Positions 2,186 to 44,035 of a DNA stretch of 44,035 bases are shown here, in pieces. Each line of letters opens with the position of its first letter. Within the stretch, counting starts at the first letter, position 1. This stretch comes from a virus, in the IMG/VR virus record IMGVR_UViG_3300003885_000008, positions 1 through 44,035 of that record; one strand, written 5' to 3'. The position numbers were made by a program, and so were the translations under genes. The notes beneath the pieces were generated by a model. That model saw nothing but the letters and a program-made list of their open reading frames with translations, was not told the DNA's origin and did no database searches.

Positions 2186-5100
2186 ATGCCAATACTGGAA
2201 AACAATTTTCTGGTAGTTGATTTTTCATCTATAAAAGGCGGTTATACACAACTCAGACTCAAAGAAGGATATTATGCTAAAGGTCATGCACAAGGTGCTG
2301 ATGCTAATATTTCCGGGGGGCGGTCAAATTTAACACGTTCTAATGAATTGAAAGTTTCCACTTCGGACTATTTTCTTTTTGATTTTGAAGGTACTGAATA
2401 TTCGACAACAAGCTTTTCTTGGCAGATAACCGCTACAACGAAAAACAGCGTTGATCTTTATGGAAACGCTGATACTTTGGGTGGAATTTCTGTGAATGTC
2501 ATCGAGGTTAAAGCAGATAATATCGGGCTTTCAATTGCTTCTGACAGAACACTGAATACAATAACAATTTTGTATTATTTCACGCTTGACGGAAAAGGAT
2601 TGATAAAGAAAGTGTCAACAATGTTAAATAATCTGCCATATGACGATGCTTTGATTCAGAGTGGTAGAGTTTTTAATTTTGCTGGCGTAAGCGGAATGAG
2701 TCCGATGACGGCATTGGATAATTTTGGGTTCAAAAAGACTAGATTAGGTTTCGATTACAGGATTCAATCGGATTTGACTGGTGATTGGACTATTGATGGA
2801 GGACTTACTGCTACAATAGGTAAACCGAATGCTTATCCGAATTTGTTACCTGATTTCAATAGTAGTGAATGGCAGAGTCCAGGAACAGTCATAAGCGCTT
2901 CATCGATGAATTTGTCAGCCGGTGATGATGTCTGGCTTTCGGTAATGAATGCTTTTCCCGATGAGCGGGACCATTGGTTCAATTTCGATATCTCGAATCA
3001 GACAGGGCAGTTGAATGTTGAATATAGTTTAGTCAGGAATCCGATAAATACCACTGCGAATGCGGAATTGTTGTCTATCGGCAGTAACGGGGCTTTTTCA
3101 ATGGAGTTTGCGAAAGGCTTTGGTTACGCTTGGCTTTATGTCCGGCTTAATCAGGTTTCGGGAAGTTGTCGCATATCAAATCCGATTGTCACTTATGAAA
3201 ATCAAACAGTGGCTTTTAAAGCTCCTGACGGGGCGTATCTGGCAAATTCTCAAATGGAGGGTTGCGTAAGAATTGTAAGTTCAAACCCGAACGGCAAGCA
3301 GATGACTTACAGTTTTTCGTCAAATGTGAAGATTGCGGATGGCAAAGGAATCGGTATAAATATCCGGTCACTGGATAATACGGATATTCAGACGGGAGCT
3401 TTTAAAGTCGCTTTCCAGAAACCGGATAATTCCTGGGTTGACGGGGCGGTTCAGAATCTTTTTGTTGATTACAATGAAAAATTTAATCCCGATAACGCCG
3501 GGAATGCTTCTCAATTGCACCAGTGGGAGGACGGTATTTTCGGTATATCTGTTCCCTCTGGGATGGATGAGATAAAAGGCTTTAGGATTGAATTTACGAC
3601 TACTAACGCTATTGATTGGCTGTTTGATGATACTTTTGTTTTGAATTGGCAGTCAGCAGACAACGGAATGGGGTCTGATGATCGAAGAAACTTCGGGCCG
3701 GGTGTGGTTGGTCTCAGGGCACGCGATTGGCATCTGCGGGGAGCGCATGGAATAGTCTACCCGCAACCTGTGGCAATTAATGCCGATCCGGTTTTTTTGT
3801 CTCCTGGAAATAAAGTCCCGATATCTTTCGGAGATGTATCGTCCATCACTGAAATATTTGAGCTTTCTCCCACTTTCGGTGGGTTTCAGATTTTAGATTC
3901 CCGTGTAGAAGATCGGGGAAATGAGCTTAGAATTGATGTTGCCGGATTTTCTGATTTACATTCAGTGACAAGCGTATCAAACGGAATCACAGGAGACAGC
4001 TATAGAATAAAGAGTGTAAACGATAATACAGTCACCGTAGATGTGGCAAATAAAATTCACAATCAGAGTGATGTTTTGGTAATTTATTATTTACGCAAAG
4101 ACGTATTTGCCGGTACCAATTGGAGCTTTTCTACCATGAACGATGGCAGAAAGGCTATTACCTGGGTAAATAATATTTTTACTCAGGCCGTTCGAAACGA
4201 TGCCGCCAGGAAGAATATTTTGTATGCCTCTTATACAGTCAGTGAACGAACGGATAGTCAAGTCGGGATGATTGTGGCCGCCAACAATTATGATGTTGGA
4301 ACACAGAGGTTGTTGAGGGGGGATATTACGGAAGGTTCTCCATTAATATCCAACTATTCTAATTTGGTATTTACCGATTCCGAAAATTCAACTGCGGAGA
4401 CAACTTTTATTTATTATCCTACGGTTGGTTATTCTACAGGAGACACACTTTACAGTCTGGTTCAATCCGTTCAGGATACTTTGCAGGACTATACCGTGAA
4501 GAGTCGAAAGGAACCTTTGTCCCCGGTTCCAAAAAGTTACAACCTTATCCCTCATGTAGCCTTTGGAGGAGAGCAAATAGCCGCTCAACCAATTGGTTTT
4601 ATTCAGGATGCTGCCCAACAACTTGCCAGCGCCAACACTTCAAATGCGATTATTAGTGCTGGTTCCCTGGCTTACCTCAGAGACAGAGATACTTCGTCCT
4701 GGTGGTGGTGGGGTGGTAGTCTCCGGGATAACTCGATTGATTATCTAAAGACAACGAGGAATATGCTCAGGGGCAACTCAACTGAAACTGAAGTGTCTAA
4801 TGCTATCAGTTCTCATCGTTATTGGTTTGAGGTTACTACTTTTGCCTATGAGCATAATAAGAGATATCGGAGTCATGCTTCGACCGATTATAAAGGTGTT
4901 GAGAAGTTCAAGCGTGTCTGGTATTACCAGAATCCAGATGGTCTTTATACTGCTCGTGTTCATGCCTGGGATGATTTTAAGGCATCTTATTATGATCCAG
5001 TAACGATTGGTGGTGGGTCTGATGTTGATTCATTTGATGACGGAACAGATATAAGCACATCCGCAGATTATGTTTTTCAATATCATTACACTTTGGTAAT

Positions 5101-6182: not shown

Positions 6183-7825
6183 TGGGGTATGCGGGAAATA
6201 CATATCAAGTTCAGTGCGATAAGGGCGGCCTGAATTTCTCGAATAATCATGACATTCTTGCTCCGACTGCCATGGTTTCTGGTTCAAAGAACCTGATATT
6301 TGAGAAGGGTGGACGAAGGAAACGGGGTGGTACGTCTATTCTGCAAACTGCCGCTTCCGGCACGCCAACAATTTTAAATTCGATTCAATATACTCCGGCG
6401 GGAGGGACAAGCCGGATTGTCTCCTGGACGGATACCGGGAAGATTCTACATGATGGAGTAGAAGTAACTTTGCCGCAAACCGTAACGGCGGGAGGATATT
6501 GTGATTTTGAGATTGCGGACGAGGAATTGTATTTCGTAAATGGAAGCGATGAGCCGATGGTGTTTAGTGCGGCAGGTTCCTGGGTGCTTCTCTCTTCTTT
6601 TTTTACTCTTACTGCTGATTGGTCAGCGACAAAGGGATATCCGAACTGGGTGAGGGTGCATGGCCGGGGAAATTCCCGCAGGCTTTGGATGGGCGGAGTA
6701 TCGAACGATCCTGAAATTGTATATGGTTCAAAGGATGGAGATTTTCATAATTTTACTGATGAGGTTGGTTGTATATATCTTTTGCCTATTGATACCGGGC
6801 ATCCGGACGGTATTGTCGGTTCGATTTCGTTTAACTCTCAGTTTATTATGTTCTCGAAAAAGAACGCTTTTATTTTAGATGATGAAGCAGTTGATTCTAC
6901 CCAATGGGGATATGATAAGGCCCCCTGGGAGGCGGGGGCGGCTCACCAACGGCTTATTGTCCGGTCCCCAAATGACATCATTATTATGAATGAAGACGGG
7001 GATATTTACTCGATAGGAGCTGTCCAGGAGGCAAATGACTATGTTGCGGCAAGTCTAGCTCGACCTGCTTTTGTTAACGACTGGTTAAGAATAAACGGTA
7101 ATTTTGCTCAAATTGAAAAGTTTCATTCGATATATGATCCAGTGGCAAGAATTATCCGTTTCTTTATCGTTCAGGCAGGAAAGAGTCAAGTTGATACCAG
7201 TCTTGTTTATTATATTGACAGGGTCCCTGCTGAGGCATGGATGCTCCACGACAATTTAACATCAAATTCCGGTTTCGATGCTGCTTCATCCGCTACTGTT
7301 TTTCTTGATTCTTCAAGTGAGACTGCGATTATGACCGGTGATTACTCAGGGAGAAACTGGCGGCTGGAAACGACAAGCCGTAACGATAATGGCAATGGTT
7401 ATTATGCTGGTTTTCTTACGCCTGAGATGCTGTTCCTGCAACAATTCTCTGAAGAAAATTCTGTAGGAACTTTAGAAACAGATGGTTCTGAATCGTTGCA
7501 GGCAAGGTTTAGGAAGCAATACAAGCGGTTTATCGCTGGTTTTCAGGCGTTGGGAAGCTATAATATTTCGGTCAATATTTGGATTGATGGGACAGCTTTA
7601 ACCTTACAAACTCTCAGTATGTTGGGAGCAGGTGTGCCTTTGGGAACCTTCATTTTAGGAACAAATAGTTTGGTTGATAGCGCAGAATTAGCCGACAAAA
7701 GTTTTTATTTAAATCGGACAGGTAAACGGATTAAGTTTGAATTGTTTAATTCAACTGTAAATGAAGATTTCTTTGTTTCCAGGTTTCAAATTGACTATAA
7801 ATCATTAAGTAAAAGGTCTACGTAA
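6182..7825 (+). CDS. Putative tail nozzle / beta-propeller-like protein
   Basis: A 547-residue protein. I place the start at ATG 6182, which overlaps the TGA of the preceding gene; an upstream TTG at 6128 would overlap that gene by 55 bases and is unlikely. The N-terminal GGLNFSNN, GSKNLIFEKGGRRKRGG region (residues 15-50) followed by repeated beta blades is characteristic of nozzle or stabilisation proteins of short-tailed phages (analogous to T7 gp12 or P22 gp10), which extend the tail below the adaptor. Repeats with WTDTGKI, YFVNGSDEPMVF and IMNEDGDIYSIG look like propeller blades. Family membership is inferred from these patterns. Confidence 0.65.
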   Translation: MGYAGNTYQVQCDKGGLNFSNNHDILAPTAMVSGSKNLIFEKGGRRKRGGTSILQTAASGTPTILNSIQYTPAGGTSRIVSWTDTGKILHDGVEVTLPQTVTAGGYCDFEIADEELYFVNGSDEPMVFSAAGSWVLLSSFFTLTADWSATKGYPNWVRVHGRGNSRRLWMGGVSNDPEIVYGSKDGDFHNFTDEVGCIYLLPIDTGHPDGIVGSISFNSQFIMFSKKNAFILDDEAVDSTQWGYDKAPWEAGAAHQRLIVRSPNDIIIMNEDGDIYSIGAVQEANDYVAASLARPAFVNDWLRINGNFAQIEKFHSIYDPVARIIRFFIVQAGKSQVDTSLVYYIDRVPAEAWMLHDNLTSNSGFDAASSATVFLDSSSETAIMTGDYSGRNWRLETTSRNDNGNGYYAGFLTPEMLFLQQFSEENSVGTLETDGSESLQARFRKQYKRFIAGFQALGSYNISVNIWIDGTALTLQTLSMLGAGVPLGTFILGTNSLVDSAELADKSFYLNRTGKRIKFELFNSTVNEDFFVSRFQIDYKSLSKRST

Positions 7826-9549
7826 TGGGGGCTACATTTTCCAGGGTAAAAACTTGGGTTTCGGAAATACTTACGGCAGCAGACCTTAATGCTGAGTTTG
7901 ATAATATTTTAAACAATCTTGATCCTACCGGTGTTGATGACCAATCAACTAATGATGCGGCTATGCAGGCAACAAGAGACCCATATCCCGCATCAGCTAT
8001 TTCCCGGCCAGGTGATCTTGCAGGAGAAATTCAGGGTCTTAGGTATCAATTTAAAGAGACGCTTGGTGGAGCACAATGGTATCTCGACCCTGATTCCACG
8101 ATTGCAAAACTGTTTGCGGGAGAGGTAAAAACAGCCGAGAAATCCAACACATACACCATCCTTATTTCTGATGGGATTATTTATGCAAACCTTGCATCCT
8201 CAAAGACTTTCACCCTTCCGGCTGTGTCTGGGAACGATGGCAAGATTTACTATATTTCCAAGATAGACGCAACGTCTTCTATCCTGACGATTGACGGAAA
8301 TGGGAGTGAAACGGTAGGTGGAGTGACCTCGCGCTTTCTTCGTTCCCAGAACGATTATATTGCCTTGGTTTGCGATGAAACGAACACCGATTGGGTAGTC
8401 ATTTCAAAATCCGGTCCCCGCCAAATTCCCCAATACAAAAGCTTGGTGGTGAAAAATAATACCACGAATCCCTCATATCAGATTGATATTGACGCTGACA
8501 CCTTGGATGTGGTAAATGCCGGGAATGACAGTATCAGGCTCATATCCGTGAATTTAACGGCTGATTTAACCGGTTCCGGGGCAAACGGTCTTGACACCAG
8601 CTCAATGGCCGTAAACACAACTTATGCGGTGTGGGTGATCTACAATCCTGTCACTAATACGGTTGCCGGACTGCTTTCGACTTCGTTCACATTGGCAGGG
8701 TTGACGTTGCCGACAAATTATACTTATGGCCGCCTGGTAGACTTCTGCCGGACTGCTACTGGCAGTACAGAGCATCTGGCAGAAACTAATTTTGCCACAC
8801 ATGCCAAATGGGATGCTACCGGGGATTGGGACGATACCGGAGGAAATGCCGCCTATACTCATTCAGCCGGAAGCGGAAATTTAACCCAAACGAACGCAAA
8901 CCTGGCGAATGCCGGAAGCAATAATACCCTTTATATTTTTGCTTATACCGTGACCTCTCCGAGTGGCGATGCTGCTATCCAGATTACCAATGCCTTTGCC
9001 TTGTCTGCTCAGACCTTATCAATAAGTGCTGGAGCGCAGACAAAGATGTTTTTATCTGCTGTCTCAGCCAGTACCGCTGATCTTGTAATTGCTGGAACTT
9101 CGACTTCCGGGGGTGTAACAATCGATGATGTAAGCCTGAAGACCGCTTCAATTATACCCTTTCATTCTGTAAATGGTATACATATATATGATGATCCTTT
9201 TGATGATACTTCTGCTTTAGCCAGTGGTTCCGCTACTTCATTTACCAGTGTAGGTATAGCTAAGTTCACTGGTGACAATACATTAGTAAAGAAAGTTATA
9301 CTGAACTGGGATGCAGATAAAGCTGCTGATTCTACCGGCTCTGTTTATTTTTATATCAGACCTACAGGTAGTAGCGGTAACGGTATTAGGTTATGTAGAT
9401 TGCAAACTGAGACTGCAACCGATATCGCACATACAAATGGGGAAGTAATTATGTTTTTAGGGTCAGCCAGAACTTTTGAGTATAGACAAAACCTCAGTGC
9501 TGGAAGTGATCTTTCGATATGGGTACACGGAGTTTATCTGAATCTGTGA
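7825..9549 (+). CDS. Tail fibre protein
   Basis: A 574-residue protein whose ATG overlaps the preceding TAA (TAATG). Residues 1-40 (FSRVKTWVSEILTAADLNAE, then FDNILNNLDPTG) form a helical virion-attachment segment common in environmental phage fibres. The rest is Ser/Thr/Gly/Asn-rich beta structure with lectin-like modules (about residues 330-440 and 450-574). No catalytic motif is visible. It would be the receptor-binding fibre attached to the nozzle or adaptor complex. Confidence in fibre identity is good; the receptor cannot be inferred. Confidence 0.75.
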   Translation: MGATFSRVKTWVSEILTAADLNAEFDNILNNLDPTGVDDQSTNDAAMQATRDPYPASAISRPGDLAGEIQGLRYQFKETLGGAQWYLDPDSTIAKLFAGEVKTAEKSNTYTILISDGIIYANLASSKTFTLPAVSGNDGKIYYISKIDATSSILTIDGNGSETVGGVTSRFLRSQNDYIALVCDETNTDWVVISKSGPRQIPQYKSLVVKNNTTNPSYQIDIDADTLDVVNAGNDSIRLISVNLTADLTGSGANGLDTSSMAVNTTYAVWVIYNPVTNTVAGLLSTSFTLAGLTLPTNYTYGRLVDFCRTATGSTEHLAETNFATHAKWDATGDWDDTGGNAAYTHSAGSGNLTQTNANLANAGSNNTLYIFAYTVTSPSGDAAIQITNAFALSAQTLSISAGAQTKMFLSAVSASTADLVIAGTSTSGGVTIDDVSLKTASIIPFHSVNGIHIYDDPFDDTSALASGSATSFTSVGIAKFTGDNTLVKKVILNWDADKAADSTGSVYFYIRPTGSSGNGIRLCRLQTETATDIAHTNGEVIMFLGSARTFEYRQNLSAGSDLSIWVHGVYLNL

Positions 9550-9935
9550 GTTTCCGGGCTTATCAACCGGGCGATTTTGAAGCTTTACTCGCTATGTTAC
9601 AGGAAGCGAATACCGTAAAGTCTTTCTTTTCAGCAAAAGATATCGATACTGAGGTGATGACTTTTTACGGAAAACCCGTTGGCTTCTATTCTTATTGTGT
9701 AAGAAACGGCTGGTTTTATCTGGTTCATTTCTGTGTTGGAAAGTCTTCTCGGGATAATCGTTTGTGGAGGCAAATGCTGAACCAGATGAAGAATAAAATA
9801 TCAAGTGGAGTTGGTTTGTTGCTTTTGCATCATGAAAACAAGAGGCTTATAAGGTTTGTTGGTCGGGTTGTCAATAACCTTTATTTCATAAAAAAATCTG
9901 ATAAAATTAATAACCTTTATCTTGCGAGGATATAG
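9519..9935 (+). CDS. GNAT-like acetyltransferase
   Basis: A 138-residue protein. FRAYQPGDFEALLAMLQEAN (residues 12-31) is the usual first strand and helix of the GNAT fold, and VHFCVGKSSRDNRLWRQML (from about residue 69) lies where the acetyl-CoA binding strand and loop would be, although the classic Q/RxxGxG/A loop is not clear. ATG 9519 overlaps the fibre gene by 31 bases; a GTG at 9546 overlapping the fibre TGA is an alternative start. Such genes often sit between nozzle and internal virion protein genes in short-tailed phages. Substrate unknown. Confidence 0.6.
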   Translation: MGTRSLSESVSFRAYQPGDFEALLAMLQEANTVKSFFSAKDIDTEVMTFYGKPVGFYSYCVRNGWFYLVHFCVGKSSRDNRLWRQMLNQMKNKISSGVGLLLLHHENKRLIRFVGRVVNNLYFIKKSDKINNLYLARI

Positions 9936-9937
9936 AA

Positions 9938-10579
9938 ATGGGCGGCGGTAATACTGGTGTCGGAGAAGAAAAAACTAAAACAACAGTAGAAACTATTTAT
10001 CAGGAGCCTTCTCTTAGTCAAGAAGAGAGTAATCTACTTGATCTTTTAAAATTCGTTTCCGGTGTTTCTGGAGAAACTGAAGGAGAGTTTCAATTTACTG
10101 AGACTCCTGAGCAACAAAGATTAAGAGAGTTTACGGAGAGTCTGCAAGAACAGGTTGGAAGTGAATTTATAGATCCAGTCCTGGAGGCGCAAATTGCTTC
10201 TGAACGAACGGCATTGGAAGCTGATCTTCAAAGAAGATTTGGGTCAGACTGGGCCTCTTCTTCAGCGGGAATTCAAACATTAGCTTCTTTTGAAGCGAGT
10301 GCGGACTTGCAACGGCAATCAGCAAGGCAGGGCCGTCAAACTAGTTTGACGGGAGATATTACCGATTTATTGCAGACAGCAGTTGGGACGCAAAGTGAAG
10401 GGGCCGGGAATATTAGTGATATTCTTTCAGTATTGGCCGCAAGAGAACCTGTGCCAATTAAGCAAACAACTCGTTACAAAAAAGAGGGGGAATCGAGTAA
10501 GAGCAGGGCAATACGACTTTTTGGTCCTACAGGAACTGATTTAGGTGGGGCTGGTGGTGTCATAGGAAGCTTTTTTTAG
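9938..10579 (+). CDS. Putative internal virion protein (small)
   Basis: A 213-residue, Gln/Glu/Ser-rich protein with a long predicted helical stretch (residues 55-140, LREFTESLQEQVGS and ERTALEADLQRRFG) and a Gly-rich end (GGAGGVIGSFF). Preceded by GAGGATAT at good spacing. Position upstream of the giant internal-protein gene and helical Ala/Gln-rich composition fit ejection proteins of short-tailed phages, but sequence alone does not prove this. Confidence 0.55.
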   Translation: MGGGNTGVGEEKTKTTVETIYQEPSLSQEESNLLDLLKFVSGVSGETEGEFQFTETPEQQRLREFTESLQEQVGSEFIDPVLEAQIASERTALEADLQRRFGSDWASSSAGIQTLASFEASADLQRQSARQGRQTSLTGDITDLLQTAVGTQSEGAGNISDILSVLAAREPVPIKQTTRYKKEGESSKSRAIRLFGPTGTDLGGAGGVIGSFF

Positions 10580-16719: not shown

Positions 16720-17077
16720 CAATAGTAGCTCTATTATTCCGCATATCCCGCTCCTTGATCATATTGGCCCAGTCCTCAAGCCTGGCAAGCTTTTCTTCGG
16801 CCTCCAACAGCCGCTTGTAAACTGAGCAGGTCTGATAGCAACCAGTCGGCAGTCTGGGGTCTCGTGCAGTTTTATCCTCTACTGGCTCCTGGCAACGGCA
16901 TGTTGCGTCACAGCGAGTTAACCTACCGCAGAACGAGAAATATTCACCATCAAGCCGAAATTTCTTTCTTGGTAAATGCGCTACATTTTCCAACGGGTAA
17001 TGTTCGCATCCGGTAGTGTATCCATTTGGTGAATCAATGATATTCGTTCCGCATTGCCCGCATTGAAAGTTACTCAT
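16706..17077 (-). CDS. Cysteine-rich, probable zinc-binding protein
   Basis: A 123-residue protein from ATG 17077, which has GAGGG five bases upstream; a further in-frame start at 17092 would overlap the upstream gene more. Cys pairs occur in CGQCG (residues 6-10), CEHY, FCGRLTRCDATCRC (about 49-62) and CYQTC (about 80-84), enough for two metal sites. The last 35 residues form a charged helix. A DNA- or protein-binding role is plausible; no named family is claimed. Confidence 0.6.
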   Translation of the reverse strand: MSNFQCGQCGTNIIDSPNGYTTGCEHYPLENVAHLPRKKFRLDGEYFSFCGRLTRCDATCRCQEPVEDKTARDPRLPTGCYQTCSVYKRLLEAEEKLARLEDWANMIKERDMRNNRATIDENN

Positions 17078-17510
17078 TCGTTCCCTCTTCAATCATCACC
17101 GGATTGTAAATGTCAACATCGGACGCTCTATATAACTTATCAAGCAGCTCGGAAACGGAATTGGGCATGATCGGCATCATGTCGGCTTTGGCAACCTTTA
17201 ATATCTCATGAAATTCCTTAATCTGCTGCCCCTGCAACGTTATTACCAGAGTCGGAACCTGCTGCTTCTTCTTGAGGTTATTTAGCCGCCGTTTAGCTTT
17301 CTCAACGATCTGGCGTGCCCGCTCTAAGGATATCCCGCATTCCTCGCTAACCTGTTTATAGGTTTGCGGCGGTTTTCCCTCCAGTCCGAACCGGGCGGCA
17401 ATAACGTTACAATCCCGCACACTTAAACCACCAAGCGCTTTCACAAGCATATCCAGGTCTTCCGATGTGATATGATAGCCTTCTATCCGAGGGCTTCTTT
17501 TAGGTTCCAC
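17070..17510 (-). CDS. Sigma-70 region-4-like transcription regulator
   Basis: A 146-residue protein from GTG 17510 with GGGAG eight bases upstream. Residues 29-78 have the sigma-70 region 4 pattern: LSVRDCNVIAARFGLEGKPP, then YKQVSEECGISLERARQIVE, and KAKRRLNN, the helix-turn-helix that contacts a -35 element in RpoD-type factors. Region 2 is absent, so it is not a complete sigma factor. The C-terminal half is unassigned. It could redirect host RNA polymerase to late promoters, or act as an anti-sigma or activator. It lies in the early leftward operon, suitable for an early-to-late switch. Confidence 0.75.
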   Translation of the reverse strand: MEPKRSPRIEGYHITSEDLDMLVKALGGLSVRDCNVIAARFGLEGKPPQTYKQVSEECGISLERARQIVEKAKRRLNNLKKKQQVPTLVITLQGQQIKEFHEILKVAKADMMPIMPNSVSELLDKLYRASDVDIYNPVMIEEGTNE

Positions 17511-19173: not shown

Positions 19174-19446
19174 CTAACCGAAACCGGAACCGGAACCGGA
19201 ACCGGAACCGAAACCGGAACCGTCACCGAAACCGGAACCGGAACCGAAACCGGAACCGGAACCGAAACCGGAACCGTCACCGAAACCGTCACCGTTACTG
19301 TCACCGAAACCGTCACCGGAACCGAAACCGGAACCGTCACCGAAACCGGAACCGGAACCGAAACCGAAACCGGAACCGGAACCGTCACCGTTACTGTCAC
19401 CGAAACCGGAACCGGAACCGAAACCGGAATTTATTTTTCCTTCCAT
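19174..19446 (-). CDS. Gly/Ser/Phe/Asp-repeat protein encoded by a hexanucleotide repeat
   Basis: A 90-residue protein starting [20 protein letters not shown] and made almost entirely of SG, FG, DG and NG dipeptides. GAGGTG precedes ATG 19446, which overlaps the end of the upstream gene, so this frame is preferred over the Val/Thr/Pro/Ser frame (stop 19146). Each dipeptide is a GGT-x hexamer. The protein would be flexible, rather like FG-repeat or glycine-rich linkers; function unknown. Length is likely to vary between relatives through repeat slippage. Confidence 0.55.
19177..19431. repeat. Hexanucleotide minisatellite (ACCGGA/ACCGAA/ACCGTC units)
   Basis: About 250 bases built from units of six: AACCGG, AACCGA and the variants ACCGTC and TTACTG, seen as accgga, accgaa and accgtc. 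The unit length keeps all frames of one strand open. The units occur in higher-order blocks (for example a shared block at 19261-19296 and 19351-19400), a sign of repeated unequal exchange or slippage. Confidence 0.9.
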
Positions 19447-21796: not shown

Positions 21797-22068
21797 TTAC
21801 CACTTCTATCCCGCCATTCCTGAAGGTTGTTGGCCCATTTATCCAGTTCACCGTCAAAGATTACTTCGCAGACAGCGGTGTCGTCAGGAGCTTCGGAACC
21901 GTGATATAGATCATTAAGCGGGCACTTTGAGCACCCACGCTTACACACCTTAGCCAAGACTTCCATCGCTCCTATAATCTCGTCAAGCTCCTGGTTGGGA
22001 TCCCCGGTGGTCTCTGGCGGGAGGAACTGGCTGAATCCTTCGAGCGGGTCTGTCTGGGCGTTACTCAC
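21793..22068 (-). CDS. Hypothetical protein with Cys cluster
   Basis: A 91-residue protein from GTG 22068 (CCGGAG upstream). CKRGCSKCPLNDLYHG and a later Cys resemble the small Cys cluster seen in the next gene (CDSDKCDNSYSNC), so the two may be related. The operon position points to an early accessory role, unknown. Confidence 0.5.
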   Translation of the reverse strand: MSNAQTDPLEGFSQFLPPETTGDPNQELDEIIGAMEVLAKVCKRGCSKCPLNDLYHGSEAPDDTAVCEVIFDGELDKWANNLQEWRDRSGK

Positions 22069-22924
22069 TATTAATCTCCGGCAACAATTCCCAGATTGCC
22101 TTGATAACGCCTTTGTTCTCTTTCCAATATTTTAAGGCATTAATATTCATCTCAGATATTTTTTCATCTGAGAACCCAAACCATTCATCTGGTGTGTGAT
22201 ATTCACAGCCTATTCGGATGTTATTCTTTTGTATATAAGCCGTCCATTTCCCGGAATGGAAAGTTTTCAGGTTGACCTTGCTCAGGTCGGCGTTACGCAG
22301 GTTGGCGTAACTCAGGTCGGCGTAACTCAGGTTGGCGTAACTCAGGTCGGCGTTACTCAGGTCGGCGTTACGCAGGTCGGCGTTACGCAGGTTGGCGTAA
22401 CGCAGGTTGGCGTTACTCAGGTCGGCGTTACGCAGGTCGGCGTAACTCAGGTTGGCGTAACTCAGGTCGGCGTTAATCAGGTTGACCTTGCTCAGGTCGG
22501 CGTTACGCAGGTCGGCGTAACTCAGGTCGGCGTAACTCAGGTCGGCGTTACTCAGGTCGGCGTAACTCAGGTTGGCGTAACTCAGGTCGGCGTAACTCAG
22601 GTCGGCGTAACTCAGGTCGGCGTAACGCAGGTTGGCGTAACTCAGGTCGGCGTTACTCAGGTTGGCGTTACTCAGGTCGGCGTTACTCAGGTTGGCGTTA
22701 CTCAGGTCGGCGTTACGCAGGTCGGCGTTACGCAGGTTGGCGTAACTCAGGTCGGCGTAACGCAGGTTGGCGTAACTCAGGTCGGCGTTACTCAGGTTGG
22801 CGTTACTCAGGTCGGCGTTACGCAGGTCGGCGTTACTCAGGTTGGCCCGGCAACCATTTTCCTTACCATTTTCCCATTTTTTATGATCTTCCAGTATCTT
22901 TTTTATATTAAGGTTGTTATCCAT
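22061..22924 (-). CDS. Pentapeptide-repeat protein
   Basis: A 287-residue protein. After a 27-residue start (MDNNLNIKKILEDHKKWENG), about 40 consecutive pentapeptides of the A(D/N)LSN, A(D/N)LSY, A(D/N)LRN type run to near residue 215. They form a right-handed quadrilateral beta-helix. The C-terminal 65 residues (TAYIQKNNIRIGCEYH and onward) match the tail often attached to such repeats. Relatives include DNA-mimicking gyrase protectors, but many have no known role. GGAGGA precedes the ATG. The last bases overlap the next gene. Confidence 0.9.
   Translation of the reverse strand: MDNNLNIKKILEDHKKWENGKENGCRANLSNADLRNADLSNANLSNADLSYANLRYADLSYANLRNADLRNADLSNANLSNADLSNANLSNADLSYANLRYADLSYADLSYADLSYANLSYADLSNADLSYADLSYADLRNADLSKVNLINADLSYANLSYADLRNADLSNANLRYANLRNADLRNADLSNADLSYANLSYADLSYANLRNADLSKVNLKTFHSGKWTAYIQKNNIRIGCEYHTPDEWFGFSDEKISEMNINALKYWKENKGVIKAIWELLPEINSE
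22268..22850. repeat. Tandem 15-bp repeat array inside the pentapeptide gene
   Basis: Almost every unit is CAGGT(C/T)GGCGT(A/T)A(C)(T/G), with few variable positions, so the DNA itself is a near-uniform minisatellite of about 39 units. Most pentapeptide genes are far less uniform at DNA level, which implies recent expansion or homogenisation. As a by-product the opposite strand is also open across the whole array. Confidence 0.9.
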
Positions 22925-25333: not shown

Positions 25334-26128
25334 ATGAAAATAGGATACATTAAATTTTGGAGAGAATGGATGGAACCAGATAGCAGAATATGGGCGAATC
25401 CTGATTTGCTTAAAGTATGGATTTGGTGCTTAGGTAAAGCGACCTTTCATGATAAAAAATGGGTATCCCTTAAAAGCGGGCGGGGATATGTTGATGTCGA
25501 GATAAACAGGGGGCAATTTGTTTATGGGCGGCATTCCGCAGGAGAGGAAACAGGGCTTAGTCCGAGTACAATCAGGGATCGGATGAACAAATTAGAAAAG
25601 CTTGGTTTTCTCGACATCAAACCCGCCAAGCAATACTCAATAGTAACTATTTGTAATTATGAGTATTATCAGGGCAGGGAAACGGAAAGCCCGACAACCA
25701 AGACGACAACTGCGCCTATAGGCAACCGTTCACCAAACCTTATACCAACCGACACAAAGAAGAATGATAAGAAAGATAAGAATGTTAAGAAGTCTTCTCC
25801 ACTTCGTTCCGAAGACAAAGAAGATTCTTCACGTTGTTCAGAATCTCTGTGTGGTTTTGAAAAATTTTGGAAAGCCTACCCGAAGAGAAACGGAAAGCGG
25901 TTGGAGAGAAAAGCTGCCCTCACCCAATTTTCCCGTTTAAAAGAAACCGAGATTCCCTTGGTGATGGTGGCGGTCAAACATTACTCGGACTCCGGGCAGA
26001 TTCCCAAGGACGCTTTCCGCTGGCTACGGGACCGGTGTTGGGATGAGTGGCAGACTCCGGCGGTAAAGGAGCGTGAGAAAACTTCGGTTGAAAAGGCGGT
26101 AAAAGCTTTGGAGCGTAGAGGATATTGA
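25334..26128 (+). CDS. Winged-helix replication initiator-like protein
   Basis: A 264-residue protein. Residues 1-115 form a winged helix typical of phage initiators (LKVWIWCLGKATF; RGQFVYGRHSAGEETGLSPS; RDRMNKLEKLGFLDIK; IVTICNYEYYQ). A low-complexity Lys/Ser/Thr linker follows (about 118-170), then the C-terminal FEKFWKAYPKRNGKR module (residue 175 on) that many lambda O-like or helicase-recruiting proteins carry. It should recognise the origin and bring in the host helicase. Its presence beside the GTCAC array supports that reading. Confidence 0.75.
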   Translation: MKIGYIKFWREWMEPDSRIWANPDLLKVWIWCLGKATFHDKKWVSLKSGRGYVDVEINRGQFVYGRHSAGEETGLSPSTIRDRMNKLEKLGFLDIKPAKQYSIVTICNYEYYQGRETESPTTKTTTAPIGNRSPNLIPTDTKKNDKKDKNVKKSSPLRSEDKEDSSRCSESLCGFEKFWKAYPKRNGKRLERKAALTQFSRLKETEIPLVMVAVKHYSDSGQIPKDAFRWLRDRCWDEWQTPAVKEREKTSVEKAVKALERRGY

Positions 26129-30364: not shown

Positions 30365-30489
30365 TCTCTCAATCCCACCATATTAATTGACGTTGGACTC
30401 TCACTAACACTTTTGTACGAGCTTTCACGATTGCAAGCAATTCATCCTCTCTTACCCCCTTTCAGGTAATTAATACTGAATATATCTAT

Positions 30490-30518
30490 AGTATATATTG
30501 GGTTAATAAGGTTGTCAA
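30490..30518 (-). promoter_or_regulatory. Strong sigma-70-type promoter of the accessory operon
   Basis: Minus strand TTGACA (30518-30513), 17-base spacer, TATACT (30495-30490), the same boxes as the left early promoter. It reads toward the gene at 30364 across a 125-base leader without an obvious gene. Confidence 0.85.
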
Positions 30519-30526
30519 CCCTTATT
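30505..30526. promoter_or_regulatory. Dyad operator over the -35 box
   Basis: AATAAGG (30505-30511) and CCTTATT (30520-30526) flank TTGTCAAC, so a symmetric site covers the -35 of the accessory promoter. A repressor here would block RNA polymerase. Candidate binders are the two ribbon-helix-helix proteins. Confidence 0.55.
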
Positions 30527-30599
30527 TTAAATAAAATGTATTTATCGGGTATTTATTTTTAATTAACTTCTCTAGGTCCTACTCTACCAAGCCAAAGCG

Positions 30600-30680
30600 T
30601 GAGCCAGTTGCAAAGCATGAGCCAAAATGCTATCCTTGATAATAGATTGAGCCAAAAATACTGAGCCAAAGCATGAGCCA
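30600..30680 (+). repeat. TGAGCCA repeat array, candidate packaging site
   Basis: TGAGCCA occurs at 30600, 30618, 30648, 30662 and 30674; inverted copies (TGGCTCA) occur inside the next gene at 30927 and 30950. The array lies in a 326-base gap directly before the putative small terminase gene, where pac or cos recognition sites commonly lie. No other gene was seen in this gap. Confidence 0.6.
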
Positions 30681-30690
30681 CGGAGTATCC

Positions 30691-31245
30691 ATGGGAGCTA
30701 ATGCCAACCCCATAACCGATTCGCAACGATTGCTGGTCGTGAGCCTACGCCAAGCCGGGCACAATTTCCGCTATATAGCCAGTGAAGCCCGCCTCGCCCG
30801 TAATTCAGTTATGAAAATATGCAAAGAGGAAGGTGTAGCAAAGCCTGAGGAGCAAACCAAGGAAGCTGAAAATGCTAAAAAACGAGAGTTACAGAGTTCT
30901 GGGAATCAGGCCGCCCCCACCCCTCTTGGCTCACCCCAAGACACAGTTTTGGCTCACGCTTTACGCACCAATATGCAGGAGCGTTTGGCTGATAAAACCC
31001 ACAAGTTTGTCGATACTCTTACTGATGAGCGTATTGATGAGGTATCCATCCCCCAGGCGGTGAACTGTATCTCCAAGCTTATCGATGCCTCCACCAAGTT
31101 GGAGCGTGCCCAGCAGGACCGTGATGTCACCGACTCACTGACTGCGCTGTTGGTGCATGGTGCAAAGCGGCAGGAGGAGCTTAGGATACCGTTCCCCAAG
31201 ATCACCACTGTCCCGTGCGACCAGGTGCCGGAGCATGAGACCTGA
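30691..31245 (+). CDS. terS: Putative terminase small subunit
   Basis: A 184-residue protein from ATG 30691 (CGGAG upstream; ATG 30673 lies inside a repeat and has no site). Residues 8-45 hold a helix-turn-helix (SQRLLVVSLRQAGHNFRYIA, then EARLARNSVMKICKEEG), like the DNA-binding domain of small terminases. The rest is a helical oligomerisation region with a Pro/Gln linker. Small terminases bind pac sites and load the large subunit; the TGAGCCA array next to it and the large terminase 2 kb downstream support this. Identity is by context as much as sequence. Confidence 0.6.
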   Translation: MGANANPITDSQRLLVVSLRQAGHNFRYIASEARLARNSVMKICKEEGVAKPEEQTKEAENAKKRELQSSGNQAAPTPLGSPQDTVLAHALRTNMQERLADKTHKFVDTLTDERIDEVSIPQAVNCISKLIDASTKLERAQQDRDVTDSLTALLVHGAKRQEELRIPFPKITTVPCDQVPEHET

Positions 31246-35027: not shown

Positions 35028-36989
35028 ATGCCACAAGAATCAACACTAATTAATTTGGTTTCCGAAATAGACGATGATAAACAAAAGGAAATCGCAGGGG
35101 AAATTATCGAGAATACCGATACCGATATTTCCAGCCGATCTGATTGGGCAAAGAAGCGGGATGATTGGAGCAAGTTAAATGCTTGCCAGCGGGATGAACG
35201 TTTCTGGCATGGTTCTAATACTAAACGATCTTCAATATGCCTTCCAATACTTGCCACTGCTGTAAATCAGTTTCATGCCAGGGCTTACCAATCGATTTTC
35301 GCTGCTCCGGGCTTGGTAAAGGCTATCCCGGTTGGTCGAATGGATGTAAACAGAGCAAGTAATGTAGAAGCGGCTCTCAATTGGCAAGTAATGTACGGGA
35401 TTGAGGACTATGAAGAGATATTCGATAAAACCTTGCAGCAACTTCCTATTAATGGAATAGCATTTAAAAAATTGGGCTGGGATTCGGAGGCTAAGCAGGC
35501 AGTAGCCAGTTATCTTTCTCCACTTGATGTAATCCTTCCATATCGAACTGTATCCCTAAAAACAGCAAGAAGGATCGTGCATAAAATCGAGATGCATTAT
35601 GAAGAACTTCTTGACAGAAACGAGCAGGGGTTATATGAGAATTTCGACAAAATAAGCGAAGACGGTCTTCATGATACTTTGAATGAGCCGAATAGAGATA
35701 CCGATGATGAACAGGTTGGTATGAGTTCCGTTAAAGCGTCTGAAGAACCACATATTATTCTGGAGTGTCATAAAACTTATGATATTGGACCTGGCCGGAA
35801 ACCGTATATTTTTACCGTTCACAAGGCAAGCGGTGCTTTGTTACGTATAACCAGCCGGGAATACAAAGAAGGCTCCACTGCAAAAGTAATTAATCATTTC
35901 ATCGATTACCATTTTATTCCAAATGCGGAAGGGTTTTACTCTTTTGGTTTTGGTCATTTCCTGCAACAGTTTAACGAAATAGCAAATACTGTCCTTGATC
36001 AAATTGTTGATGCCGGAACCCTCACTAATATGCCGTTCATGTTCCATACTCGCCGGGCCGGATTTCGTAAGAACCGGATTCAGCTTACGCCGGGAGCGGC
36101 AAACGAGGTCGAAGATGCCAGTCAGATATTCTTCCCTCAGATGCAGAAGATGGATAATGTGCTTTTCAATGTACTTGGAGTTATCCAAGGCTGGGGTGAT
36201 CGTTTTACTTCGGTAACCGATCCACTTACCGGTCGTGAAACTCCTGGAGTGGAAAGACCGACATTCAGGGGAAAGGCTCTTTTGATAGAGCAGGGATCCA
36301 CTCAGTTCACCGTAATGGCTAAAAGGGTGTTCAGGAGTTTAAGGAAAGAATTCCGGCTTTTGATGCTATTAGATCAATTATTCTGGCCTGAGAGTGCTCA
36401 AGTAAGAATATTCGAGCGTGAAGGTAAGATTGCTTTTAAAGAAACGAAGAAGGAAGATTTTCAGGGTGTGAATGATATTATCCCAACTGCCGACCCCAGT
36501 TTTGCCAGCCAGTCTATTAGACGGCAGGAGGCTGCCCAGCTTCATGAAATCTTTATGGCAAGTCCGACTGTAGTTGGGAATCCTGAAGCCGGAATACCGC
36601 CCAATGTCGATGTAATGAATAAATCCTTGAAACGGCTTGAGGAAACCTTTAATACTCCAACAATCTTGCCCGACTTGCCGGAAGAGCAGATATCCCCGGA
36701 AGACGAAAACGCTTTGTTCATGCAGGGGGAATCAAAAGAGCCTCAGCAGGGAGAGAATCACCGTGAACACCTTGAAGTGCATCGGCGGTTTATGACAAAG
36801 CAGTGGTACGATGAAATGCCAAAGGATTATAAGACTGCTCTTCAAGATCATATACAGAAAACCGGGGAAATGATGGTTGATGAAGCGCTTGCCGTTGAAC
36901 AGTTAGGTGGTATTCCAAGAGCAGGTCAGAGAGAGGGTCAAGGAGCACCTAACGCGCCATTACAGCCGTTATTAAGAAAGGGACAATAA
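35028..36989 (+). CDS. Portal protein
   Basis: A 653-residue protein, the length of large portals of short-tailed phages. Helical wing and stem features: RSDWAKKRDDWSKLNACQRD, a middle region with NPFGxGx-like YSFGFGHFLQQFNEIANTVL (about 305-325), RRAGFRKNRIQLTPG, then the long helical region TQFTVMAKRVFRSLRKEFRL (about 425-445) and a Gln/Pro-rich tail. Twelve copies would form the channel for DNA. AGGAAAT precedes the ATG. Order after TerL supports this. Confidence 0.85.
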   Translation: MPQESTLINLVSEIDDDKQKEIAGEIIENTDTDISSRSDWAKKRDDWSKLNACQRDERFWHGSNTKRSSICLPILATAVNQFHARAYQSIFAAPGLVKAIPVGRMDVNRASNVEAALNWQVMYGIEDYEEIFDKTLQQLPINGIAFKKLGWDSEAKQAVASYLSPLDVILPYRTVSLKTARRIVHKIEMHYEELLDRNEQGLYENFDKISEDGLHDTLNEPNRDTDDEQVGMSSVKASEEPHIILECHKTYDIGPGRKPYIFTVHKASGALLRITSREYKEGSTAKVINHFIDYHFIPNAEGFYSFGFGHFLQQFNEIANTVLDQIVDAGTLTNMPFMFHTRRAGFRKNRIQLTPGAANEVEDASQIFFPQMQKMDNVLFNVLGVIQGWGDRFTSVTDPLTGRETPGVERPTFRGKALLIEQGSTQFTVMAKRVFRSLRKEFRLLMLLDQLFWPESAQVRIFEREGKIAFKETKKEDFQGVNDIIPTADPSFASQSIRRQEAAQLHEIFMASPTVVGNPEAGIPPNVDVMNKSLKRLEETFNTPTILPDLPEEQISPEDENALFMQGESKEPQQGENHREHLEVHRRFMTKQWYDEMPKDYKTALQDHIQKTGEMMVDEALAVEQLGGIPRAGQREGQGAPNAPLQPLLRKGQ

Positions 36990-37234
36990 TGGGAGAAGAT
37001 TATACTTTAGAGGATGTGGAGGTTTGGCTGAAAAATTCTGTAACAAAGGAAGTTTTTAAGAGAATACTTGAGAAAGCAGTTTTACTTGAACGGGATACTG
37101 TCAATTGTCTTGTTTCTGGTAAGGAACATACCGCAATTAATACTGCGGTAGAATCGAAGACTTTACGTGGGATTGTTTATATCGGGAATGATTTAATTGC
37201 TGATTTGGAGGAGAACAAAATCGATGAAACTTAG
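36989..37234 (+). CDS. Hypothetical protein between portal and GroES-like gene
   Basis: An 81-residue helical protein: DYTLEDVEVWLKNSVTKEVF, ERDTVNCLVSGKEHTAIN, ending in ENKIDET. Its ATG overlaps the portal stop (TAATG). Two long helices could form a hairpin. Position only suggests an assembly role. Confidence 0.6.
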   Translation: MGEDYTLEDVEVWLKNSVTKEVFKRILEKAVLLERDTVNCLVSGKEHTAINTAVESKTLRGIVYIGNDLIADLEENKIDET

Positions 37235-37595
37235 AGCGTTTGGAGCAAGAGTTCTTATAAAACGGGACTCTGCAAAAAAAGAATCGATAACTAAAGGCGG
37301 TATTATAATACCTGATAATAGACAGGTAAATAAACCGGCTTTCTCCGGGACAATTCTTGATGTCGGTGGGTATTGCGAGATGGAATTTAAAGACTCCCAG
37401 GGAAAAGCTCGGCGTTTAAAGCGTGGAGATAGAGTTATTTTTGGTTTGTATTCTCCTGGCATGGAGCTTGACCGGATAAATCATGGTGATAAACCGGAAT
37501 ATGAAGGTATTCTTCTTATGGCCGAGGATGATATCTGTGTCATTCTGGAAGAAGGCGAAAGCAATTTGAATATAGAGGAGAATGAGAATGCCTGA
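37224..37595 (+). CDS. groES: GroES-like co-chaperonin
   Basis: A 123-residue protein from ATG 37224 (GGAG upstream, overlaps the previous stop). LRAFGARVLIKRD opens as in GroES, GGIIIPD (residues 25-31) is the mobile-loop motif that docks on GroEL, then GTILDVGG, RGDRVIFGLYSPG, and the closing ILLMAEDDICVILEE. T4 gp31 is the known precedent: a phage lid that lets GroEL fold the capsid protein. Location between portal and scaffold supports a capsid-folding role. A 12-residue acidic tail is extra. Confidence 0.9.
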   Translation: MKLRAFGARVLIKRDSAKKESITKGGIIIPDNRQVNKPAFSGTILDVGGYCEMEFKDSQGKARRLKRGDRVIFGLYSPGMELDRINHGDKPEYEGILLMAEDDICVILEEGESNLNIEENENA

Positions 37596-39540: not shown

Positions 39541-40452
39541 ATGCCAGCTATAGCAATTAGAGGAAATTTTGCTGATGCACTCTCCTTGAACTTTGAGGAG
39601 ATATTTTTTAATCATTATAACTTGGTTGGGGATGAGTACAGCGCTATCTTCAACAAGGAGAAGATTGAAGGGGAATCCATCGAGTATTCCTATGTAACCA
39701 ACCTGAGTACAATTCCGAAAGCGACCGATGGTTCCAACATTACTTATGAAGCGCCAGTACAGGGCTTTGATGTAAAGTTAACTCCCGATACTTACCGGAA
39801 AGGGTATAAGGTTACTTTGGAAATGCTGGAGGATGACAGGTATAACATTTTTTCCAGAATGCCTGCCGCTTTGGGAACCGCTATGATGCGGACTCAGAAC
39901 CAGGTTGGAGCAAATATCATCAATAATGGCTTCGATTCTGCTGTCCAGACCGGAGCGGACGGATTGGAATTGTTTTCTACGGCTCATGTTCTGGCTGTCG
40001 GTGGAACTCAGAAGAATGAGTTGACAACTGCTGCTGTTCTGTCTGCTGATTCGTTGGAGCAGGCGTTACTCGATATTGAGACCACAACTGATGATCAGGG
40101 CAATATACTGACGCTTATTCCCAGGATATTGCTTATTCCGCCTCAATTGAGGACTAAGGCTCAGAAGTTGCTATTGAGCAGTCAGGACCCGGATAGCGGC
40201 AATAACGCAATCAATCCCATGGCTGCGGGTTATACGGGACTTGTCCCGATGGTGAATCATTACCTGACCAGCGCTACCCAGTGGACTATCATCTGTGATG
40301 TTAATCCTCTGGTATGGGTAGACCGGGTTTATCCGAGTCATGCGGCTGGGAACGAGTTCGATACGGACAATGCCAAGTTTAAGGTTCGTGCCAGGTTTAT
40401 TCCCGGTTGGCGGCCTGAGCCTTGGGGAGTGTTTTCAACCCCTGGAGCATAA
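39541..40452 (+). CDS. Major capsid protein
   Basis: A 303-residue HK97-fold-like capsid protein, similar in layout to the Mu gpT class: ALSLNFEEIFFNHYNLVGDE near the start, spine-helix region RTQNQVGANIINNGFDSAVQ (about 118-137), A-domain with IPRILLIPPQLRTKAQKLL (about 197-215), and FKVRARFIPGWRPEPWGVF at the end. AAGGAG precedes the ATG. No N-terminal delta domain or protease cleavage is evident, agreeing with the separate scaffold. Confidence 0.85.
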   Translation: MPAIAIRGNFADALSLNFEEIFFNHYNLVGDEYSAIFNKEKIEGESIEYSYVTNLSTIPKATDGSNITYEAPVQGFDVKLTPDTYRKGYKVTLEMLEDDRYNIFSRMPAALGTAMMRTQNQVGANIINNGFDSAVQTGADGLELFSTAHVLAVGGTQKNELTTAAVLSADSLEQALLDIETTTDDQGNILTLIPRILLIPPQLRTKAQKLLLSSQDPDSGNNAINPMAAGYTGLVPMVNHYLTSATQWTIICDVNPLVWVDRVYPSHAAGNEFDTDNAKFKVRARFIPGWRPEPWGVFSTPGA

Positions 40453-42762: not shown

Positions 42763-43347
42763 ATGCCGGTTAGTAGAGGTAAAGAGAAAAAGGAAATAAT
42801 TCATGTTCCCGATGGGGAGATGAATATACAACTCAAGCAGATTAAAGTTGTAGAGGAAGTGGTCAAGGTCAAGGTTCCTGTCTTTGTTGAGGTCCCAGTT
42901 GACAAGCCAGTTTACAAAGATGTTGTGTTTGAAAAACCGGTCTTGGTAGATAAAGACTACGAGCGTCCTATTCCTGTGAACAGAGAATATGAACGCCCGG
43001 TCGTTGTTGACCAACAGTACGAGAAACCTGTTATTGTCGAAAAAACATACGAGAAACCGGTAATCGTGGAAAAATCAGTTGAGTACGATATCCCTGTCTA
43101 TAAAAAAGTTGAGTATGAGGTTCCAGTCTACAAAGAAGTCATATATGAAATTCCCGTCTATGTGGACAAAATAATCGAGAGGGAGAAAATTGTTTATGTA
43201 GACAAGGAAGTCGAAAGGATTGTTTATGTAGACAAGGAAGTTGAAAGGGAGATCGAAGTTATAAAACTTGTCGAAAAACTTGTCGAAGTCCCTCGGCTCA
43301 AGTATGTTGATAAAGAAGTAGTACAGCCTAAGTTTAATGATAACTAA
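42763..43347 (+). CDS. Alveolin-like VPV/YEKPV-repeat protein
   Basis: A 194-residue protein consisting mainly of charged repeats: FVEVPVDKPVYKDVVFEKPV, then YERPIPVNREYERPVVVDQQ, YEKPVIVEKTYEKPVIVEKS, VEYEVPVYKEVIYEIPVYVD, IVYVDKEVERIVYVDKEVER. This Val-Pro-Val/Lys-Glu repeat grammar resembles alveolins of protists (inner membrane complex filaments); occasional bacterial and phage proteins have it too. It is probably a long beta-structured rod. It lies just upstream of appendage genes and may form a virion fibre. One base separates it from the preceding TAA; its own TAA overlaps the next ATG. Confidence 0.65.
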   Translation: MPVSRGKEKKEIIHVPDGEMNIQLKQIKVVEEVVKVKVPVFVEVPVDKPVYKDVVFEKPVLVDKDYERPIPVNREYERPVVVDQQYEKPVIVEKTYEKPVIVEKSVEYDIPVYKKVEYEVPVYKEVIYEIPVYVDKIIEREKIVYVDKEVERIVYVDKEVEREIEVIKLVEKLVEVPRLKYVDKEVVQPKFNDN

Positions 43348-43574: not shown

Positions 43575-44035
43575 ATGTCTTACAAGTTTAATCCTTTTAC
43601 CGCGAATTTAGATAATGTCGTGGACGACCATGGAGCGCTTGCTGGACTTCTTGATGATGATCATACTCAGTATATATTGGCTGATGGTTCAAGAGCTTTT
43701 ACAGGAAATCAATCATTTGGTGATTTTAATATTACTAATGTGGGGATAATAGACTTAGATGTTATCAGGGCAGATCTTGTCAATGGTTCAATAACTATAG
43801 CGTTGGATAATGCTGCTGGTGCGGATTTACTTGTAGGTAATAATAACGCTCTGGTGGTTGAGGGGGACAATGACAGGGTTGGAATAGGGATAAGCGCCCC
43901 AGAACAAGCACTTCATATTAAGAATCCCAATAGATATCCTTTTCTCGCTGAAAGGTCGGGATTAGCAGCCACAACTGGTGCGCAAATCTCGATGGCATTC
44001 AGGGCAACATCGACTGGAAATATGACTGATAATTT
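43575..44035 (+). CDS. Phage appendage/tail-fibre-like protein, N-terminal part (gene continues at base 1)
   Basis: Starts MSYKFNPFTANLDNVVDDHG with the phage-fibre signature DDDHTQYILADGSRAFTG (about residues 27-44), then GVIIDL- and VGIGISAPEQAL-type beta repeats. Two bases of a Phe codon remain at the right edge and base 1 of the window completes it; the frame then continues to 583. DDDHTQY motifs are common at the N-terminal attachment part of phage fibre and appendage proteins. The joined gene has 347 residues. Confidence 0.75.
   Translation, partial: MSYKFNPFTANLDNVVDDHGALAGLLDDDHTQYILADGSRAFTGNQSFGDFNITNVGIIDLDVIRADLVNGSITIALDNAAGADLLVGNNNALVVEGDNDRVGIGISAPEQALHIKNPNRYPFLAERSGLAATTGAQISMAFRATSTGNMTDN

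Follow-up and report, generated by a model that had tools for sequence, protein, structure and literature searches.

The question raised by this locus is what purpose is served by a cluster of short repeats lying where the genes of an uncultured bacterial virus diverge. In the 44,035-bp virus record analysed here from end to end (the window), the genes left of ~30.4 kb run leftward and a rightward block starts at 30.7 kb, including a DEDD exonuclease, the large terminase (TerL), the portal, a GroES-like protein and the major head protein. The array is placed at the divergence point, and the first gene of this packaging/structural block codes for a protein with a putative helix-turn-helix (HTH). 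A previous sequence-only reading had proposed a pac site beside the gene of the small terminase (TerS), and the seven TGAGCCA copies on which it relied were found exactly at its positions, five on the plus and two on the minus strand (Table 1). In our view the array makes a modest candidate and falls short of a discovery, with packaging initiation as the best single explanation, tentatively held and unproven.

Table 1. Coordinates of the repeats, of the neighbouring control signals and of the genes considered in the window.
Feature	Position	Strand	Basis or remarks
Direct copy 1, AAAGCGTGAGCCA	30594..30606 (core 30600-30606)	+	sequence match
Direct copy 2, AAAGCATGAGCCA	30612..30624 (core 30618-30624)	+	sequence match
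Direct copy 3, TGAGCCA core only	30648..30654	+	sequence match
Direct copy 4, TGAGCCA core only	30662..30668	+	sequence match
Direct copy 5, AAAGCATGAGCCA	30668..30680 (core 30674-30680)	+	sequence match
Centre between the facing repeat blocks, 246 bp	30681..30926	.	
Inverted copy 1 in the HTH gene, TGAGCCA core only	30927..30933	-	codons L G S
Inverted copy 2 in the HTH gene, full AAAGCGTGAGCCA	30950..30962	-	codons L A H A
Candidate TerS (HTH protein), 184 aa	30691..31245	+	weak HTH profile matches; alternative start 30673, 190 aa
Leftward sigma-70-like promoter, TTGACA-17-TATACT	30490..30518	-	11/12
Operator-like perfect palindrome GGTTGTCAACC with odd centre, overlapping the leftward promoter's -35	30510..30520	.	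sequence reading
Sigma-70 region 4 protein, 146 aa, C-terminal extension, candidate late-gene regulator	17070..17510	-	Pfam PF04545 E=1e-8
Large terminase (TerL), 544 aa	33186..34820	+	phrog_2 E=3e-38; ~30% identity to P22-group TerL
Portal protein, SU10-like type	35028..36989	+	
GroES-like phage co-chaperonin, encoded between portal and head protein	37197..37595	+	Pfam Cpn10 E=4e-10
Major head protein	39541..40452	+	phrog_371 E=2e-18

Over the whole window the heptamer is only mildly in excess, since, including four further, scattered copies (15000-, 15480+, 15989+ and 34345-), it occurs 11 times versus 5.1 expected, a count reached by one out of 100 shuffles. Its significance lies in the clustering, with five same-strand copies packed in 81 nt versus a densest 7-mer cluster per 90 nt of 2 (n=110) or 3 (n=190) copies in 300 equally long order-1 Markov sequences. 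Denser 7-mer clusters do occur elsewhere in the window, and these are coding repeats, located in a pentapeptide gene (~22.5 kb) and in a glycine-rich ORF (~19.2 kb). In the former (22061-22924, minus strand) a 15-nt unit is present ~38 times; the 287-aa product, a pentapeptide repeat protein, gave matches below cut-off to HetL and, more weakly, to Qnr-type models. The latter (19174-19446, minus strand) is a low-complexity ORF rich in glycine, serine, phenylalanine and aspartate, with a hexanucleotide present ~42 times. Repeated valine/proline/lysine-rich units, associated with 30-nt DNA repeats, were also observed in a 194-aa protein (42763-43347, plus strand) having no NCBIfam match.

An extended 13-mer, AAAGCRTGAGCCA, has four perfect matches in the 44 kb, all of them at the array (30594, 30612 and 30668 on the plus strand, 30950 on the minus strand), while direct copies 3 and 4 and inverted copy 1 have only the TGAGCCA core in common. 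The direct copies are irregularly spaced (18, 30, 14 and 12 nt) and fall at helix-face angles of 0, 257, 206, 326 and 17 degrees at 10.5 bp per turn, and parts of the array look duplicated, the 22-nt units at 30585 and 30659 being 86% alike. The two blocks face each other, with the left-block copies pointing right and the right-block copies pointing left. The inverted pair, ~250 bp beyond the array, is read in two different frames and is thus not a protein repeat. Under two protein-preserving codon nulls (20000 draws each) 0.16-0.17 copies are expected per gene, and the probability that the gene holds at least two, whichever the strand, is 0.0023 with codons permuted and 0.0015 with genome codon usage. 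The repeats are therefore real, non-random and partly independent of coding.

The start of the HTH gene is more probably at 30691 than at 30673, because the former is preceded by a GGAG (30682-30685) with a 5-nt spacer and the ATG at 30673 has no Shine-Dalgarno sequence. This start leaves the five direct copies wholly in the intergenic stretch, copy 5 stopping one base ahead of the Shine-Dalgarno sequence and 10 nt ahead of the start codon. For the N-terminal HTH previously noticed in the protein there is some support, from weak matches to the HTH profiles of invertases, IS21, Cbp1 and transposases; in a TerS such a domain would be followed by a helical region for oligomerisation. Its assignment as TerS found no such backing: no terminase model was matched in PHROG, Pfam or NCBIfam, and hhalign comparison with two TerS profiles built here gave probabilities under 1%. 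The same two profiles match each other at 98.5%, so that the test is able to find relatives. No homologue was retrieved from IMG/VR, GTDB genomes, INPHARED phages or PLSDB plasmids at the sensitivity used, the INPHARED search giving only eight chance-level records at E up to 10, and the AlphaFold model, computed without relatives, was unusable (mean pLDDT 43.8).

The position of the gene is what makes it a candidate. The usual place of terS is first in the packaging block, and here the HTH gene lies upstream of terL in that block, with ~1.9 kb and several ORFs between them, unlike the terS-terL pairs used for comparison, which are adjacent or near-adjacent. Between the divergence point and TerL we noticed no further ORF resembling a TerS. 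The HTH protein may thus be TerS as a positional candidate with a weak HTH. Further along the block, a GroES-like gene near the portal, as in the window, is annotated also in four other records (L005, L087, L088 and L089).

A circular map had been read as fitting headful packaging. No terminal repeats of 10 to 300 nt were found in the record, and its ends (43575-44035 and 1-583) join in frame inside a single 347-codon fibre-like ORF, which fits a circular map. No phage homologue of the joined fibre protein was found that would span and confirm the junction. A circular assembly, nevertheless, fits direct terminal repeats equally well, and the map loses its value as a sign of headfuls. TerL belongs to the same broad family as that of P22 (29.5% identity over 413 aa). 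In the tree, unlike the latter, it groups with its relative from L007 (96/94) outside the P22 group, on an end branch of 2.1, a length at which the packaging type is not readable from TerL.

Several known packaging systems offer a comparison. The pac of P22 is a single site inside gene 3, and P22-type TerS proteins form another family (phrog_309). The pac of P1 consists of hexanucleotide repeats in the pacA gene, and the window resembles it in having a short word repeated within and beside its putative terS, with the difference that the P1 repeats are Dam sites and those of the window are not. If the HTH gene is terS, a repeated word is present in and beside it, as looked for in a pac site. 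The array may also be compared with the R sites of lambda cosB, in which the small terminase subunit reads a short sequence repeated three times, as described in part of PMC4856287; unlike lambda, the window gives no sign of a cos cut or of cohesive ends.

The closest likeness is with SPP1. According to the sections of PMC6316719 on this phage, pac extends over promoters, the ribosome-binding site and that portion of gene 1 which codes for the HTH; the small subunit gp1, which represses its own synthesis, binds pacL and pacR, and the cut by gp2 falls between these two, at pacC. That the repeats flank the first gene of the packaging/structural block in an arrangement resembling this pac is supported: in both cases a few hundred bp span the upstream region, the ribosome-binding site and the early coding part of the (putative) terS, two blocks surround a central segment, repeats are present, an HTH protein is encoded on top and autoregulation is possible. 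The likeness is one of layout, binding and cleavage being putative in the window. A difference is that the same heptamer occurs in both blocks of the window, facing, whereas the portion of PMC4856287 on SPP1 describes pacL and pacR as having no common sequence. Moreover, the claim that the repeats are what TerS reads is weakened by the SF6/SPP1 TerS DNA-binding domains, which showed little preference for the pac box repeats in the experiments presented in part of PMC4737164.

On this analogy, packaging might start at the array as at an SPP1-like pac, with the HTH protein as its reader and perhaps with a second role of the array as a TerS operator, a reading that we place a little short of probable. 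The HTH domains of a TerS oligomer would bind the direct copies (30594-30680) and the facing copies (30927-30962), with the DNA between the bound blocks held or wrapped; TerL would then be recruited to make a single cut in or near the 246-bp centre, and the concatemer would be packaged rightward by headfuls. If the SPP1 analogy holds, cleavage would be expected within the centre, at 30681..30926. TerS binding at the array might also repress its own gene, as SPP1 gp1 does, since direct copy 5 adjoins the ribosome-binding site and the same binding could block expression. The identity of the HTH protein with TerS, its binding to the repeats, cleavage at the site and headful packaging are thus all steps that we infer. 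A more specific version, namely a symmetric pac flanked on its two sides by an identical word, in which identical oligomers of a TerS without known relatives would bracket the cut, is in our opinion quite unlikely.

Control of the late operon, with the direct repeats binding a phage activator of the rightward block, in which the HTH gene would come first by coincidence, is the main alternative and one that we judge somewhat unlikely. Arrays of this kind are described in the parts of PMC13123087 dealing with late control: phi13 Ltr requires four repeats at -107 to -42 before the late promoter, the four to which Alt of TP901-1 binds are imperfect direct repeats at -76 to -32, and phi11 RinA, encoded upstream of terS, controls the late genes of that phage. 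Like them, the array of the window consists of direct repeats at the head of a late operon near terS; unlike them, it reaches the ribosome-binding site, recurs inverted inside the gene and has its candidate regulator gene elsewhere. The candidate activator is the small sigma-70 region 4 protein encoded in the window, for which the NCBIfam matches listed, 25 out of 30, include no Ltr or RinA model. The location of the array at the divergence point of leftward and rightward genes speaks for this explanation, and a GATAAT between direct copies 2 and 3 (30638-30643) keeps it alive, as it could be a -10 with copies 1 and 2 replacing the -35. Against it, no sigma-70 site was found by the promoter scan in 30560-30760, the direct copies do not lie on one helix face, and an activator has no need of the inverted copies inside the gene. 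Furthermore, with 10 nt between the last copy and the start codon, the gene could not be served from a promoter placed beyond the array.

The HTH protein could otherwise be an ordinary regulator having the repeats as its own operators, with the true TerS unrecognised or absent. Its weak matches are with regulators, invertases and transposases, none with terminases, and copy 5 abuts the ribosome-binding site; given the place of the gene at the head of the block and the lack of another TerS-like ORF noticed before TerL, we hold this to be improbable. Of comparably low probability is a non-functional or now idle cluster left by local duplication, to which the similar 22-nt units would point and for which it counts that no conservation can be shown: the inverted copies, some 250 bp off and in two reading frames, are not a product of local tandem duplication. 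Very improbable is an iteron-type replication origin, even with direct repeats beside an AT-rich stretch (30460-30580, 24% GC), because the spacing is irregular, the stretch holds the strong leftward promoter as well, and a DnaD/O-like replication gene 5 kb off (25334-26128), with an inner 9-nt repeat in 3.6 copies, would be a more usual place for an origin. The palindrome GGTTGTCAACC in the same stretch is probably an operator of the leftward block.

Few pac sites have been mapped, and it is unsettled whether TerS chooses viral DNA by word or by shape, the sequence-specific reading of repeats by the TerS of pac phages being disputed. For this question, a compact site flanked on either side by one word in opposite orientations would serve as a clean substrate, and the flank word is directly testable here. 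Should the array be that of a late activator instead, it would be a warning against taking repeats beside terS as pac sites.

Relatives of the locus were also sought. Single-sequence scans found no relatives of TerL or of the head protein, and the scan with the portal protein found L090. In the TerL of this record (7636-9984) an intein was observed (N- and C-terminal domains), with an HNH-like ORF inside it on the opposite strand. A TerL profile scan of IMG/VR was followed up for the best 80 of 566 relatives, which are at most 34% identical, and none of them encodes the HTH protein, one chance match (E 0.055) being the sole result in 90 loci. A portal profile scan of IMG/VR gave 80 loci, four of them at 47-53% identity besides L090's own record; none of the 80 encodes a match to the HTH protein, and a TerL match with E below 1e-3 was present only in L284, a distant portal relative.

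The array is absent from the stretches of the five close capsid relatives (L090, L230, L231, L232 and L234; 45-53% portal identity), where stray TGAGCCA copies amount to one in L232, two in L234 and none in the others. No match to the sigma-70 region 4 protein was found in the records of these five either, an empty answer that proves little. When read, three of the five were found to have a different TerL; the terminase module thus seems to have been exchanged, which makes the absence of the array in the capsid relatives uninformative.

Searches for the repeat pattern itself gave no second array of the word next to the same terminase. A two-copy pattern retrieved six stretches from IMG/VR with at most a weak cluster and no match to this TerS candidate or this TerL (ORFs were read in two of them), and these were judged to be chance occurrences. 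The three-copy core retrieved at least 120 stretches from IMG/VR, and neither the 13-mer nor this TerS candidate was present in any of those listed; among the listed clusters, at least 111 have all spacings in multiples of three, as in coding repeats, and at least 19 others do not. In GTDB genomes the three-copy pattern gave five stretches with no significant TerS, TerL or portal match, and the ORFs of the two that were read are unrelated.

Finally, repeat arrays of any word were counted ahead of terS in the TerL relatives. From 87 records with a TerL, 65 had an upstream ORF and 60 of these, the window included, had enough DNA before it; the ORF before TerL was taken as terS, an identity that is only presumed for many of the 60, and the 320 nt ahead of it were analysed. 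A 7-mer occurring at least five times on one strand was present in 5/60 (the window, L005, L065, L079 and L086), versus 9/909 regions ahead of other ORFs (Fisher P=0.001) and 93/9387 sliding windows, where the counts are not independent, and three of the five array-bearing regions (L005, L079 and L086) belong to one TerS family. In the larger TerS family (alignment A3), all members stayed below five copies. With three regions from one family and many TerS only presumed, these counts are no more than a lead in favour of the pac reading, pointing at best to a recurrence of arrays, each of its own word, at this place. In phages related to DSL-LC05 (L005, at 2900-3010; L078, L079, L081 and L086), terS is preceded at 100-300 nt by arrays of GGGTGC and TGACCCA-like words and, directly before the gene, by a T-rich stretch; the array in these phages may be either a pac or a late promoter.
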